Shown: piece by piece, positions 2,527 through 7,759 of the stretch
Layout of the letters: the number at the start of each line of letters is the position of its first letter
How positions within the stretch are numbered: the first letter of the stretch is position 1
Assembly (NCBI GenBank): GCA_025774615.1
Contig: JALGVQ010000150.1
Span: 1-7,759 of the forward strand
Reading direction: 5' to 3'
DNA from: a bacterium
GTDB taxonomy: Bacteria; Blakebacterota; Blakebacteria; Blakebacterales; Blakebacteraceae
Length of the DNA stretch: 7,759 bases
Translations under genes and position numbers: made by a program
The notes under the pieces: generated by a model
What the model was told of the DNA's origin: nothing
What the model saw: only the letters and a program-made list of their open reading frames with translations
Databases searched by the model: none

Positions 2527-4068
2527 ATGGGGCGGTACGTCTGCATCCATGGACACTTCTACCAGCCCCCGCGCGAGAACCCCTGGCTGGGGGAGATCGA
2601 ACAACAGCCGTCGGCCGCTCCCTGGCACGACTGGAACGAGCGGATCGCCGAAGAATGCTACGCCCCCAACGCAGCCGCGCTGATCGAAGGTGTCGGGTCT
2701 GCAGAAGAGCCGGTCACCCTCAACAACTATTCCCGGATCAGTTTCGACACCGGCCCGACTCTCCTCTCCTGGCTTGAACGATCCCGTCCTGACATCCTGC
2801 AGGCTATTATCGAGGCAGACCGGATCGGGATGGAACGCTTCTCCGGCCATGGGCCTGCACTTGCCCAGAGTTACAATCACCTGATCCATCCGCTGGCCAG
2901 CAGCCGTGACGTGATGACGCAGATCGTCTGGGGTATCAGGGACTTCCGGCATCGGTTCGGTCGCGAACCAGAGGGGCTCTGGCTGCCCGAAACGGCGGTG
3001 GATACCGGAAGTCTCGAATCGATGGCGGCACAGGGCATCCGGTTCACGATCCTGGCTCCTCACCAGGCCGAGGCTGTCAGACCGATCGGCAGCAACGAAT
3101 GGACCTTACTCGGGGAAAAGGCACTGGTCGACACAACCATACCGTATCTCGTCAGGCTTCCTTCGGGTCGTGAAATGGCAGTCTTCTTCTATGACGACGA
3201 ACTCGGCAAGGCTGTCTCCTTCGGTGGACTTCTCAACGACCGTGAAGCGTTCGCGGACCGATTGCTCGGGGAGCGAGGTCATGGTCATGATCACGATCCC
3301 GACTCCAGCCGGCCGCAACTGATCCACCTTGCGACTGACGGAGAGACATTCGGACACCACGTCAAAGGGGGCGAGAAGACCCTCGCCTGGACGCTCGACC
3401 GGATTGAAAGAGACGCGAATACGGAGTTGACGATCTATGGTGAATTCCTCGATCGCTTCCCGCCGACGCACGAGGTTCGGATCGCAGAGAACACCTCGTG
3501 GAGCTGCCCGCACGGAGTGGAACGCTGGCGTTCCGACTGCGGCTGTGCCGGTGGGCGGTTCCCCGAGGGAGACCAGGCCTGGCGGGCTACTGTTCGGGAG
3601 GCACTCGATTGGCTGAGGGACTCAGTCGCCGAACTATTCGAACGTGAGGCCGGACGATACCTTGCGGATCCCTGGCGGGCTCGTGATGCATACATCGAGG
3701 TGATCCTCGACTCATCTGAGGAGACGGTCACCCGGTTCTTGGATGAGCAGTCACTGTCGGGGGTTACTCCAGAGGAAGCCCGGAAGGTTCTGCCGTTCCT
3801 TGAACTCCAGCGTCATGCCATGCTCATGTACACCAGCTGCGGATGGTTCTTCGACGATCCCGGGGACATCGAGACGGTGCAGATCCTCCAGTATGCGGGA
3901 CGTGTCATCCAGATCGCGCGGACTCAGACAGGGATCGATCTCGAAGAAGGATTCCTGTCGATACTGAAGGATGCGGTGAGCAACGAACCTGAACGGGGTA
4001 ACGGGGCTGATATATACGAGCGCCATGTCCGACCCAATCTGGGAATCTTCCCGGAGACAGCGGAGTGA
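2527..4068 (+). CDS. GH57 family glycoside hydrolase (alpha-amylase/alpha-mannosidase-like, COG1449 type)
   Basis: A 513-residue cytoplasmic protein with no signal peptide. GH57 motifs appear in order: HGHFYQPPRENPW (residues 8-20, motif 1), FSGHGPALAQSYNH (105-118), GLWLPE (150-155, with Glu155 the likely nucleophile) and ATDGETFGHH (269-278, with Asp271 the likely acid/base). A conserved-looking cysteine segment, CPHGVERWRSDCGC (327-340), follows, then a helical region containing MYTSCGWFFDD and ETVQILQYAGR (434-459). Proteins of this type often carry a further C-terminal extension and run to 700-800 residues; this one stops after RHVRPNLGIFPE. A second diverged copy of this tail at 5866 also stops there, so the short form is probably native. 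GH57 enzymes include alpha-amylases, branching enzymes and 4-alpha-glucanotransferases; exact activity cannot be read from the sequence. Its place 16 bases after glgB points to glycogen trimming or remodelling. Confidence 0.88.
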   Translation: MGRYVCIHGHFYQPPRENPWLGEIEQQPSAAPWHDWNERIAEECYAPNAAALIEGVGSAEEPVTLNNYSRISFDTGPTLLSWLERSRPDILQAIIEADRIGMERFSGHGPALAQSYNHLIHPLASSRDVMTQIVWGIRDFRHRFGREPEGLWLPETAVDTGSLESMAAQGIRFTILAPHQAEAVRPIGSNEWTLLGEKALVDTTIPYLVRLPSGREMAVFFYDDELGKAVSFGGLLNDREAFADRLLGERGHGHDHDPDSSRPQLIHLATDGETFGHHVKGGEKTLAWTLDRIERDANTELTIYGEFLDRFPPTHEVRIAENTSWSCPHGVERWRSDCGCAGGRFPEGDQAWRATVREALDWLRDSVAELFEREAGRYLADPWRARDAYIEVILDSSEETVTRFLDEQSLSGVTPEEARKVLPFLELQRHAMLMYTSCGWFFDDPGDIETVQILQYAGRVIQIARTQTGIDLEEGFLSILKDAVSNEPERGNGADIYERHVRPNLGIFPETAE

Positions 4069-4073
4069 TTCAG
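4030..4073 (+). repeat. Left copy of diverged direct repeat: 3' end and stop of the GH57 gene
   Basis: This block covers the last codons of the GH57 gene (RPNLGIFPETAE, stop 4066-4068) plus TTCAGG. Its first 26 bases match 5866-5891 at 22 positions, including 12 identical bases (AATCTTCCCGGA), and its end (GTGATTCAGG) matches 5914-5923. The TCA at 4070-4072 corresponds to the glgA stop codon in the right copy, so the block holds the whole GH57/glgA convergent junction. Confidence 0.75.
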
Positions 4074-4115
4074 GCCGGATAGTATGTTCGATCTGGAATT
4101 GAACATTATATTACT

Positions 4116-4239
4116 GATTCTTGCGTAATGCTACGTTTTGTGTTATATTTATAAAGAATCGTATCGATTATATTTGATAATTCGAGACGATTCTTGATTT
4201 TTGTTGAGTCAGACGCGATATTCATGGAGAATCGTATCG
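4116..4239 (+). promoter_or_regulatory. Operator array of four alternating half-sites, likely bound by AbiEi
   Basis: Four copies of one half-site alternate in orientation: GATTCTT (4116-4122), AAGAATCGT (4154-4162), ACGATTCTT (4187-4195) and AGAATCGT (4228-4235). The second and third form a perfect 9-bp inverted repeat. The first pair overlaps the predicted -35 and start site; the second pair lies in the leader and over the abiEi start. AbiEi antitoxins are known to repress their own operon by binding inverted repeats at the promoter, so autoregulation is the natural reading. The half-sites also form two copies of a 73-bp unit: 4116-4166 and 4189-4239 agree at 34 of 51 positions, ending in the identical AGAATCGTATCG. 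Confidence 0.6.
4121..4149 (+). promoter_or_regulatory. Predicted sigma70-type promoter of the abiEi-abiEii operon
   Basis: TTGCGT (-35, 4121-4126) and TATATT (-10, 4144-4149) are separated by 17 bases, giving an expected start site near 4156 and a leader of about 70 bases. The surrounding DNA (about 4080-4200) is much more AT-rich than the rest of the window. A TATAAA immediately downstream offers an alternative -10. Confidence 0.5.
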
Positions 4240-5024
4240 TCATGCGTGCCCGTGAGTACATACATGAACTGGCATCAAACGGACGCCACCACTTCACCAC
4301 CGCTGACGCTCTCGAAGTAGTCGAAGGCAACCCTCCCGCTGTGCGTGCCCAACTGCGCCGACTGAGGCAGCAAGGTCTGATCGCGGCGCCCGTGCGCAGC
4401 TTCCATGTCATTATCCCCCCCGAGTACAATCGCCTGGGGTGCTTGCCTGCCGACCAGTTCATCGACCAGCTCATGCAGGTCTGGCGTGAGCCCTATTATG
4501 TCGCTCTCTTGAGCGCTGCCGAGAGACATGGTGCTGCTCATCAGCGGCCGCAAACCTTCCAGGTCATGGTGCGTAAGAACCGCCAATCCATCGAGTGCGG
4601 ACAGGTCCGCGTCGAGTTCATCGCTCGAGGTGATCTCGAGAAGATGCCGAGCATCAGTCTCAATACTCTCCGTGGCATACTTCGGTATTCGACACCAGAG
4701 GTGACGGCACTGGAACTCGTCGGTTACCCTAACCACGCTGGCGGGTTGAACAATGTAGCCACGATTCTGTCTGAGCTTGCCGGCGAGATGGTCGCTTACA
4801 AGTTGCTTGAGGCCGCGCGTCTATCACCCTTGAGCTGGTCTCAACGCCTGGGATATCTCCTGGAGCTGGTCGGGGAAGGGGAGATTGCTCAGGCGCTCGG
4901 GCCATTTGTGCGGAAGCATGCTCGGAGCTGCACACCATTGCGACGTGCAGCGAGCGTTGCGGGTGCGAAACGCATTCCGCGCTGGAAACTCATCGTCAAT
5001 GTCGAAGTTGTCTCTGACGAATGA
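4224..5024 (+). CDS. abiEi: Type IV toxin-antitoxin AbiEi family antitoxin / autorepressor
   Basis: About 266 residues from ATG 4224. The N-terminal 70 or so residues (REYIHELASNGRHHFTTAD, then AVRAQLRRLRQQGLI) read as a winged helix-turn-helix. The remainder resembles the AbiEi C-terminal domain: EPYYVALLSAAERHGAAHQRPQTFQVM in the middle, a helical segment after TPEVTALELVGYP, and a W-K-LIVNVEV ending. It has no membrane segments or signal. AbiEi proteins bind operator repeats through the winged helix and neutralise AbiEii without a stable protein complex. The next gene is the matching toxin, overlapping by 4 bp (ATGA), and the half-site array sits over the promoter. The start is uncertain: TTG 4194 adds 10 residues, while ATG 4242 removes six and has GGAG 12 bases upstream. 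Arginine codons are mostly CGT/CGC, unlike the CGG-rich glycogen genes, suggesting separate ancestry. Family assignment rests on layout and partner as well as sequence. Confidence 0.83.
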   Translation: MENRIVMRAREYIHELASNGRHHFTTADALEVVEGNPPAVRAQLRRLRQQGLIAAPVRSFHVIIPPEYNRLGCLPADQFIDQLMQVWREPYYVALLSAAERHGAAHQRPQTFQVMVRKNRQSIECGQVRVEFIARGDLEKMPSISLNTLRGILRYSTPEVTALELVGYPNHAGGLNNVATILSELAGEMVAYKLLEAARLSPLSWSQRLGYLLELVGEGEIAQALGPFVRKHARSCTPLRRAASVAGAKRIPRWKLIVNVEVVSDE

Positions 5025-5845
5025 TTCCCAGGGACAACATCACTGCCTGGCGAGCGCAGGCCCCATGGCTTCTCGATGCGCAGGTCGAGCAGGACCTTGT
5101 CATCAGCCGTGCCATTGTTGAACTGTTCCGTATTCCCGAGTTTGCACACAGCCTGGCCTTCCGTGGGGGTACCGCGCTGTACAAACTCTACCTGACACCT
5201 CCGGCCCGGTATTCCGAGGACATCGATCTCGTCCAGGTACAACCGGAACCGATCGGTAAAACTCTTGATCTGGCTCGTTCGGTGCTTGATCCATGGTTGG
5301 GCGTGCCGCGCCGTCAGCTCAAGGAAGGTCGGGTCAATCTGGTATATCGCTTCGAGTCTGAGGACGCGCCACCGCTCAAGCTGCGACTCAAGATCGAGAT
5401 TAATACTCGTGAGCATTTCACCGAACTGGGAATTGTGCGCGTGCCATTCAAGGTCGAAAACCCATGGTTCCGCGGTGCCGCAGACGTTGCGACGTATGTT
5501 CTCGACGAATTGCTCTGCACCAAGTTCCGAGCATTGTATCAGCGGAAAAAGGGACGAGACCTCTTTGATGTCTGGCACGCCCTGAACATGGGTCGTGCCG
5601 ACCCTCAGGTGCTCCTTACCTGCTTTATGCGCTACATGAACGAAGAAGGCCACACAGTCACACGGGCACAATTTGATGAAAATCTCGCCGGAAAACGCAC
5701 GCAGCCCGACTTCCGTGACGACGTACAGCCGATTCTCCGGCCTGATTTTTCCTGGGACTTTGATTCGGCCATGGACACAGTACTGAATAATCTGGTAGCT
5801 CAGCTGCCTGGCGATCCATGGAAAAGCCAGGTAGCAATTAAGTAG
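5021..5845 (+). CDS. abiEii: Type IV toxin-antitoxin AbiEii family nucleotidyltransferase toxin
   Basis: A 274-residue protein with the full AbiEii/MenT-type nucleotidyltransferase signature: FRGGTALYK (48-55, the G-G/S loop), RYSEDIDL (63-70, with Asp67 and Asp69 as the metal-binding pair), LRLKIEIN (121-128, Lys124 and Glu126) and ELLCTKFRALYQRKKGRDLFD (163-183, containing the Lys and Arg-Lys-Gly-Arg-Asp motif). Relatives act in the cytoplasm; characterised MenT members add nucleotides to tRNA 3' ends and stop translation, and AbiE systems were first described as abortive phage-infection systems. No essential motif is missing, so it should be active. The ATG start overlaps the abiEi stop and lacks a good ribosome site, implying coupled translation that keeps antitoxin and toxin in step. 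Stop TAG is at 5843-5845; no convincing terminator follows. Codon use matches abiEi rather than the glycogen genes. Confidence 0.92.
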   Translation: MIPRDNITAWRAQAPWLLDAQVEQDLVISRAIVELFRIPEFAHSLAFRGGTALYKLYLTPPARYSEDIDLVQVQPEPIGKTLDLARSVLDPWLGVPRRQLKEGRVNLVYRFESEDAPPLKLRLKIEINTREHFTELGIVRVPFKVENPWFRGAADVATYVLDELLCTKFRALYQRKKGRDLFDVWHALNMGRADPQVLLTCFMRYMNEEGHTVTRAQFDENLAGKRTQPDFRDDVQPILRPDFSWDFDSAMDTVLNNLVAQLPGDPWKSQVAIK

Positions 5846-5865
5846 GCTGTCCCCATCTTTTGCAC

Positions 5866-5923
5866 CGACCGAACCTTGAAATCTTCCCGGAAGCCGGGGT
5901 GTGATCCAGAGGTGTGATTCAGG
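5866..5923 (+). repeat. Right copy of diverged direct repeat: stranded GH57 3' end abutting glgA
   Basis: Read on the plus strand this encodes RPNLEIFPEAGV and a TGA (5902-5904), in register with the GH57 C-terminus at 4030-4068. It has no gene body in front: similarity stops just before 5866, and upstream is the abiEii 3' flank. It ends in two near-identical 13-base units (5898-5910 and 5911-5923, 11 of 13 matching), the second containing the glgA stop codon (TCA 5919-5921). It is probably the remnant of the gene end present before the toxin-antitoxin cassette arrived. Confidence 0.7.
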
Positions 5924-7445
5924 AACGCGGAGCGCGATGGATCGGTGACCTCGGCCTCGCCAGAACATCCCGGTAGATCTCCCGGTATTCAAGCGCCGAC
6001 TGTCGCCATGAGAAGTCCTGTGCCATGATCCGCCGGCGCAGATTCGTCCACACCTTCGGCTGGCGATAAACCGAAAAGGCGCGATGAACCGCGGACATCA
6101 GTGCCTGGGGGGTGGTGCTGTGGAAGACGAAGCCCGTTCCGTTCTCGGGATCCTTTGTGAGATCGGTGACGGTATCGACGAGCCCGCCAACTCCCCTGAC
6201 CACGGGTATTGTCCCGTAACGCATGGCATAGATCTGGCTGAGGCCGCACGGCTCGAACAGGGAGGGCATGAGCAGGTAATCACTGCCGGCCACGATCCGG
6301 TGGGCCAGTTGATTGTCGTAACCGATCCGGACGGCGATACGGTCAGGATAAGCGGTTGCGAGCCGTGCCATCTCCAGCTCATACGCGGGATCACCCTCAC
6401 CCAGGACGACCCAGGTGGCACCTGCCTCGAGCAGGTAGGGCATCGCTTCGATCGCCTGAATGATCCCCTTCTGTTCCACCAGCCGGCTGAGCAGACAGAT
6501 CAGGGGGCGTCGGGTGTCCAGTGGCAGTCCTGTCTCCTTGAGAAGCGCTCGTTTACAGCGGTTCTTCCCCTGGAGGTTTTCCGTGCTGTACCGGGTCGAG
6601 ATGAAGGGATCGCGCGCCGGGTTCCATTCCTTAATATCGATACCGTTCAGGATGCCGGTCAGGTTTTCGGACCTCGTACGGATGACACCGTCGATACCGC
6701 AACCGAACTCCTCGGTCTGGATCTCCTCCTCATATGTCGGTGAGACAGTGGTGATCCAGTCGGAGGATACGATCCCCCCTTTGAGCAGACGTATCTCGCC
6801 GAAGTACTCGAAATACCGGGGTGAGAGGTAGTTCTTCGGCAGTCCCGTGAACCGCATGTCATCAGGGTTGAACCGTCCCTGATACGAGAGATTGTGGATC
6901 GTCAGGACCGACCGGGTCCGTTCGAAGAAGGGATCGTGTCGATAGATGCTCTTCAGGTAGAGCGGGATGAGTGAGGTCTGCCAGTCGTGCACATGGATGA
7001 TATGAGGGCGGATCCGCAACTTCTTCAGCAGTTCCAGTGCTCCCCGGTTCAGTGCCGCGAAACGGGCCAGGTTGTCGGGATAATCGAGTCCCTTCTCTCC
7101 ATAGAGCGATCCGCGGTCGAAAAATGGCGGGATGTCGAGCAGGTAGACGGAGGTGTCACCGGTCTTTCTGCCTTCCCATATCCGGGCGGTCACGGGACTT
7201 CTGCCGACCGGCACTTCAATGCTCAGATCAGTCGGTCGGATCAGTTCTTTGGGTATGGTCTGATACTTCGGGATGATGAGAATGGTCCGGCAGCCGATCT
7301 CGGCCATCTCAGTGACAAGCGCCCCGGTCACATCGGCGAGACCTCCGGTCTTGGCAAACGGGACCGCTTCGGAGGCCACGAATACCACCGTGGGTCGGGA
7401 TACTCTTCTTCGTGGTTTGTCCTTGTTCATAATTCGGTAACCCAC
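5919..7445 (-). CDS. glgA: Glycogen synthase (starch synthase type, GT5)
   Basis: Adds glucose from ADP-glucose to the growing alpha-1,4-glucan in the cytoplasm. About 508 residues, the usual bacterial length. Near the N-terminus is VVFVASEAVPFAKTGGLADV, whose KTGGLAD lysine is the ADP-glucose binding motif; HVHDWQTSLIPLYLK and LTIHNLSYQG follow, then the GT-B hinge and C-terminal domain with LLSRLVEQKG, and SLFEPCGLSQIYAMRYGTIP with GLVDTV, containing the catalytic EPCGL region. The frame is intact. Three starts are possible: ATG 7475, GTG 7445 and ATG 7430. I prefer GTG 7445, because GGAG (7452-7455 on the plus-strand numbering) is 6 bases before it and the predicted promoter would leave ATG 7475 with no leader. 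The gene converges on the GH57/abiE side and is transcribed separately from malQ-glgB-GH57. Arginine and isoleucine codon use (CGG, ATC) matches that operon. Confidence 0.93.
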   Translation of the reverse strand: MGYRIMNKDKPRRRVSRPTVVFVASEAVPFAKTGGLADVTGALVTEMAEIGCRTILIIPKYQTIPKELIRPTDLSIEVPVGRSPVTARIWEGRKTGDTSVYLLDIPPFFDRGSLYGEKGLDYPDNLARFAALNRGALELLKKLRIRPHIIHVHDWQTSLIPLYLKSIYRHDPFFERTRSVLTIHNLSYQGRFNPDDMRFTGLPKNYLSPRYFEYFGEIRLLKGGIVSSDWITTVSPTYEEEIQTEEFGCGIDGVIRTRSENLTGILNGIDIKEWNPARDPFISTRYSTENLQGKNRCKRALLKETGLPLDTRRPLICLLSRLVEQKGIIQAIEAMPYLLEAGATWVVLGEGDPAYELEMARLATAYPDRIAVRIGYDNQLAHRIVAGSDYLLMPSLFEPCGLSQIYAMRYGTIPVVRGVGGLVDTVTDLTKDPENGTGFVFHSTTPQALMSAVHRAFSVYRQPKVWTNLRRRIMAQDFSWRQSALEYREIYRDVLARPRSPIHRAPRS

Positions 7446-7482
7446 CCGGTACTCCGGTTCCTGTTCAGACTGCATCAGAGAT

Positions 7483-7600: not shown

Positions 7601-7640
7601 GGAGGGGTGGCGGAGCTGGTTGAACGTGACGGTCTCGAAA
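7601..7640 (+). pseudogene. 5' half of tRNA-Ser(CGA), truncated at the anticodon loop
   Basis: The block starts GGAGGGG (5' acceptor strand), TG at positions 8-9, a D-arm with stem GCG/CGT and loop GAGCTGGTTGAA, then anticodon stem ACGGT and loop CTCGAAA, giving anticodon CGA (Ser). It closely resembles bacterial tRNA-Ser(CGA) genes. The expected ACCGT closing strand is absent; the next bases, GCCCT, pair only partly (one wobble, one mismatch). No long variable arm, T-arm or CCCCTCC 3' acceptor strand occurs in the remaining 119 bases. It is therefore a fragment, or the first part of a gene interrupted at the anticodon loop whose rest lies outside the window. Confidence 0.6.
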
Positions 7641-7759
7641 GCCCTTTTCACGATCCTGCAACATGTTGTGCCTCATGTAAATGCATGTGTTTTACATACT
7701 TAACCACAGCCTTGATACAGCTTGTTCGTAGAAATGCACCCTTGGTCCTGTAACGAACT
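7641..7759. other. Non-coding right edge with short palindromes
   Basis: No gene is supportable here. It holds a 10-bp palindrome CAACATGTTG (7659-7668) and a hairpin ATGTAAA/TTTACAT (7675-7681 and 7691-7697, 9-base loop). The hairpin has no T-run behind it, so it is not a convincing terminator. Confidence 0.4.

Follow-up and report, generated by a model that had tools for sequence, protein, structure and literature searches.

We report that the 3' end of a GH57 glycoside hydrolase gene recurs, in frame and with its stop codon, on the far side of an AbiE toxin-antitoxin operon. Our best reading of this second copy (5865-5909) is that it is a scar of AbiE entry at the GH57 3' end, left most likely by one-sided recombination of an ordinary sort and not by a novel type of mobile element.

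The window analysed is the entire contig C215 (7759 bp) of a MAG of 3.3 Mb, 82% complete and in 324 contigs, from a sparsely sampled phylum. GH77 (partial), glgB, GH57/DUF3536, abiEi and abiEii all lie on the plus strand and are followed by glgA on the minus strand (Table 1). The glgB gene carries a frameshift near 745-757 (region 642-860), with its N-terminal part in frame 1 (from 616) and the remainder in frame 3. Either the gene is broken or an error arose in sequencing or assembly. At 7602-7645, some 115 bp from the end of the window, the sequence resembles by eye a tRNA-Ser(CGA) gene of which only the 5' half is present, cut off within the 3' side of the anticodon stem. It may represent an interrupted tRNA or an att site; neither ARAGORN nor Rfam reports it, and Rfam found no RNA family in the window.

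Table 1 Features of the GH57-AbiE-glgA region, with positions in the window.
Feature	Position	Strand	Evidence or remark
GH57/DUF3536 glycoside hydrolase, 513 aa, short form	2527..4068	+	Pfam PF03065 and PF12055
Left repeat copy: last 13 codons of GH57 (RPNLGIFPETAE and stop) and 4-5 bases past the stop	4029..4073	+	Alignment
AT-rich leader	4074..4241	+	33% GC over 4069-4223
AbiEi antitoxin	4224..5024	+	PF09407 E 4.9e-45; PADLOC AbiEi E 1e-87 from residue 7
AbiEii nucleotidyltransferase toxin, intact motifs	5021..5845	+	PF08843 E 3.3e-36; PADLOC AbiEii E 2.8e-104
Right repeat copy: stranded GH57 3' tail (RPNLEIFPEAGV and stop), no gene ahead of it	5865..5909	+	Alignment
Second partial tail-end copy, CAGAGGTGTGATTCAGG against 4058-4074	5907..5923	+	13-nt tandem duplication, includes the glgA stop
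glgA, glycogen/starch synthase	5919..7475	-	PF08323 E 2.8e-78; convergent to GH57 and abiE

A local alignment pairs the two copies at 35/45 identical positions without a gap. The right copy, located between AbiEii and the convergent glgA, reads H RPNLEIFPEAGV and stop, where GH57 ends in HV RPNLGIFPETAE and stop; frame and stop codon agree. Its start, 20 nt past the AbiEii stop, is abrupt, and there is no similarity upstream of that point. The initial annotation had reported that the GH57 tail recurs in frame after the toxin gene, with no gene in front of it, and the alignment bears this out. That annotation placed the right end of the copy at 5923 because the 13-nt tandem duplication extends the similarity over the glgA stop: a second TGATTCAGG on the right side (to 5923) matches 4058-4074 at 15/17 positions.

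The similarity is specific to these two places. The alignment scores 40; the highest score among 2000 Markov-shuffled versions of the right flank is 29. When the right copy was used as a blastn query against its own genome, the best non-self match was the left copy (E 0.0016), and the next match had an E value of 1.7. We also searched the 3.3-Mb genome with the degenerate pattern CGNCCNAAYCTNGRNATCTTYCCNGA, which encodes RPNL(G/E)IFPE (RPNLxIFPE), allowing up to 2 mismatches. Exactly two sites were found, at 4030 and 5866, and the reversed-pattern control gave 0. The four genomes of the same phylum that we compared (G001, G002, G003 and G008) contain no site, and no copy of the tail pattern was found among the viral contigs searched. 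Chance similarity is thus rejected by the shuffles, the genome-wide blastn and the pattern search. The right copy had also been considered as a possible dispersed repeat, which we reject on the presence of only two genome sites and on the left copy being the best match in the genome.

Between the copies lies an AbiE type IV toxin-antitoxin operon that is, judged by its domains and motifs, complete and intact. abiEi and abiEii are adjacent and co-directional with a 4-nt overlap, and their domains are those that define AbiE type IV. AbiEi starts at 4224 or at 4242, the latter in better agreement with the family profile. In an alignment of 34 sequences, the AbiEii residues G50, R63, D67, D69, R175 and D180 are conserved, and the protein carries RDLFD (the RDxxD stretch). 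AbiEii thus shows the motifs that define the AbiE toxin, hG[G/S]x15DhD, an Arg in motif II and +DxxD; these definitions come from Dy and colleagues, who found such motifs essential (PMC3985639). The leader contains a 17-nt inverted repeat (4151-4167 / 4182-4198, 88%) and a direct repeat (4145-4166 / 4218-4239), and by parallel with PMC3985639 it is probably the AbiEi operator and promoter. The operon shares with the AbiE described there the bicistronic abiEi-abiEii arrangement, inverted repeats in the putative promoter and the DUF1814 toxin motifs I, II and IV, and we find no departure from the family here.

Compared with the host mean, taken from 20 sampled contigs, the codon usage of AbiEi and AbiEii lies below it (z -2.0 and -1.1 SD, respectively), which points weakly to a foreign origin. 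GH57 has host-like codon usage in both halves (z about +0.3), and glgA is typical. As the initial annotation had noted of integrases and transposases, ORF and Pfam analysis of the window, a contig of only 7759 bp, reveals no recombinase or integrase gene, and abiEi and abiEii are the only genes between the repeats.

The GH57 gene is itself a short form. DUF3536 is incomplete in it, with positions 3-157 of 284 matched (3-161 in the genome search), and a profile search found no other DUF3536 piece in the genome. The protein is without about 300 C-terminal residues that are present in most homologues: these are mostly 790-870 aa long, and the alignment stops at residue about 503-505. Short forms of about 490-525 aa also occur in several unrelated lineages, and comparable short GH57-DUF3536 forms were seen in L011, L012, L104, L075, L086, L017 and L101. 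The tail after RPN is found at the end of no GH57 homologue compared, long or short. Because this tail is unique to the lineage, the right copy would postdate the origin of the short form and derive from the lineage itself or from a close relative. We rejected the reading of the right copy as the C-terminus of a long GH57 form, since 0 long-form homologues have an IFPE-like end; it is also countered by RPNL aligning at the conserved position of about 503.

The differences between the copies are informative to a limited extent. In the first nine codons there are four synonymous differences (CCC/CCG, AAT/AAC, CTG/CTT and GAG/GAA) and one replacement (GGA/GAA), exactly as first described. Each of the last three sense codons carries a replacement (T/A, A/G and E/V), and both copies end in TGA. 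In total the coding part differs at nine nucleotides, of which 1, 3 and 5 fall at codon positions 1, 2 and 3. We simulated divergence from the left copy with either both copies constrained (omega 0.1) or the left constrained and the right dead. For the first nine codons the values are 0.23 and 0.034, respectively, a preference of about 7:1 for constraint on both. For all twelve codons they are 0.04-0.09 and 0.067, about 1:1 and thus without preference, because the replacements in the last three sense codons make the whole pattern fit a dead duplicate equally well. The synonymous-codon argument is therefore weak, as it draws on the favourable section of the tail only, and the proposal built on it, divergence of the copies as functional genes in separate lineages, is not borne out over the full tail.

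We searched for relatives and for empty sites. No GH57 was found in the same-genus and same-family genomes examined (63-85% complete), and glgA has no convincing counterpart in them, with a single weak match (E 1e-4) in G001. Among GTDB species genomes, the closest GH57 has 56% identity, and the plasmids searched contain no GH57 relative. These searches yielded no donor, recipient or empty-site genome. Across the glycogen loci compared, conservation of the glgB-GH57 order is wide; none of the others has GH57 convergent with glgA, and none has a tandem GH57 pair.

To place the scar in the context of the family, we compared 29 other AbiE pairs in two batches. Close flanking direct repeats are present at 4/29 and absent at 25/29, while the controls show them at 0/90 same-contig positions and at 2/5983 positions in glycogen loci. 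All four cases come from the first batch, with 0 among the scorable loci of the second, and they are of four different kinds. The only true parallel is L145, where a 50-nt, 92% copy of the 3' end of the adjacent ankyrin-repeat gene, stop included, lies beyond AbiE (L145:5667-5716 against L145:3787-3836); the ankyrin gene family is multi-copy in that genome. At L144, AbiE is flanked on one side by a lipoprotein-like gene truncated to its 5' end and on the other by a full paralogue of 650 aa, and L144:1665-1910 is 80% identical to L144:3872-4117 over 246 nt. The flanking repeat of L146 is a palindromic 44-mer, and those of L147 are dispersed repeats. Separately, L151 has a 161-nt, 89% direct repeat of a HicB-like frame (L151:4042-4201 / L151:7303-7463) that encloses a helix-turn-helix/ImmA-like gene pair together with AbiE; we set it aside as a parallel, as the HicB-like repeats are separate toxin-antitoxin genes.

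These results speak against a general AbiE insertion mechanism, which we reject given the heterogeneity of the four repeat cases and the 0 in the second batch. They also fail to support the earlier suggestion that a junction of convergent genes serves as an entry point: by a crude, ORF-based scoring of neighbour orientation, the 23 other scorable loci comprise 3 that are convergent, 9 that are co-directional and 8 with a divergent left neighbour, and a comparable 3'-end repeat is present at 1/29. One could go further and read AbiE pairs as autonomous cassettes that have no recombinase of their own and for which duplication or exchange of a neighbouring gene's 3' tail is the way in, so that gene ends would be exchange sites for defence cassettes. 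The gene-tail repeat of L145 and the higher frequency of flanking repeats at AbiE than in the controls favour this; the difference in kind among the four cases and their absence from the second batch count against it, and we consider it very improbable.

The account that we favour, with a probability somewhat short of even, is import by homology-facilitated illegitimate recombination, which stranded a GH57 tail beside glgA. The AbiE operon would have entered where the 3' ends of GH57 and glgA abut, on donor DNA consisting of the 3' part of a related organism's GH57 followed by abiEi-abiEii. Homologous recombination inside GH57 would have closed one side; on the other, the junction would have formed within the final codons of the resident GH57, with no extended homology. 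GH57 would then be left intact with the donor tail, and the resident tail would remain beside glgA. The direction of transfer, the identity of the resident copy and the recombination route are what we infer from this arrangement, and the model predicts a mosaic inside GH57.

Several observations agree with this import model: the tail pattern occurs only twice in the genome and the blastn match is specific to it, GH57 is host-like in codon usage while AbiEi and AbiEii are less typical and preceded by a leader of 33% GC, most differences in the first nine codons are synonymous, and the window holds no recombinase gene. GH57 and DUF3536 are also single copy in the genome, so there is no living paralogue that could have supplied the stub. 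The process, moreover, is already described (PMC3240628, PMC5361080). Homology at one end combined with illegitimate joining at the other (PMC3240628) likewise places one end in a homologous gene and the other without homology, and adds foreign DNA beside the gene; there, however, the process is experimental, whereas we have a single genomic scar. T6SS effector modules displace old 3' ends downstream (PMC5361080), and these effector-immunity genes with orphaned Rhs 3' ends share with our locus a retained 5' part and an old 3' end stranded downstream. Their cargo belongs to the gene itself, as its toxin tip or immunity gene, while at our locus the cargo is an unrelated toxin-antitoxin operon and the neighbouring gene a metabolic one. 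Against the import model, the pattern over all twelve codons fits a dead duplicate as well, and the donor must already have carried AbiE after GH57. In comparison with the initial annotation, which had proposed import linked to a relative's GH57, we retain a GH57-type tail that is not dispersed and is flanked by the cassette and glgA, as a displaced tail would be, but not the functional divergence or the entry through a convergent junction.

A serious, though unlikely, alternative is a long target duplication, in which AbiE entered at the GH57 end and duplicated about 45-55 bp, the glgA-side copy then decaying. At each cassette border the repeat breaks off abruptly, and the 13-nt tandem duplication in the right copy is what non-functional sequence might show. 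There is also a precedent: restriction-modification systems, which are toxin-antitoxin-like, are reported to insert with long, variable target duplications on the order of 100 bp (PMC3874152). Those insertions (Nobusato 2000 and Furuta 2010, cited there) share with ours a selfish two-gene cassette, no transposase and direct repeats of the target, but the repeats here are about 45 nt long and 78% identical. Target duplication should leave identical or near-identical copies, in contrast to the 35/45 observed; with 22% divergence, the insertion would have to be old. The synonymous excess in the nine codons argues about 7:1 against this alternative, though not over all twelve, and 25/29 other AbiE pairs have no near flanking repeat. 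Also unlikely is a tandem paralogue, that is, two diverged GH57 genes of which the second was replaced by AbiE except for its last 13 codons. L144, with its truncated and full paralogues, and L145, with the tail of a multi-copy gene, resemble such a case; against it, GH57 is single copy here and the glycogen loci compared show no tandem pair.

The position at a gene 3' end, with one tail that regenerates the gene and one that is stranded, is the classic signature of an integrative element. The copies could thus be the attL and attR sites of a mini-element that relies on an integrase acting in trans or has lost its own, and the identical 12-nt block in the alignment, AATCTTCCCGGA, would be the crossover core. 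The 7.8-kb window contains no integrase, the genome has no third such site and 25/29 other AbiE pairs are without such repeats, and we regard this site-specific integration as quite improbable. Least credible of all is a chance similarity or an assembly artefact. Although the match is short (45 nt) and the MAG is fragmented, the match is the best in 3.3 Mb, the degenerate pattern is found twice only, and the copies are placed symmetrically with the same frame and stop. An assembler is unlikely to have joined unrelated reads, because the longest exact word that the copies share is 12 nt, which is too short.

Taken as a whole, an ordinary AbiE operon is accompanied here by an insertion scar that is real and not random. 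The case is single and undated, comes from one incomplete MAG and is a further example of processes already described; it also offers a clue to how defence cassettes may enter without a recombinase. Were the import model true, the locus would be a snapshot of how a defence cassette enters without a transposase, with the target gene kept alive by the supplied tail, and the recombinase-free movement of small toxin-antitoxin operons would become testable through stranded gene tails.
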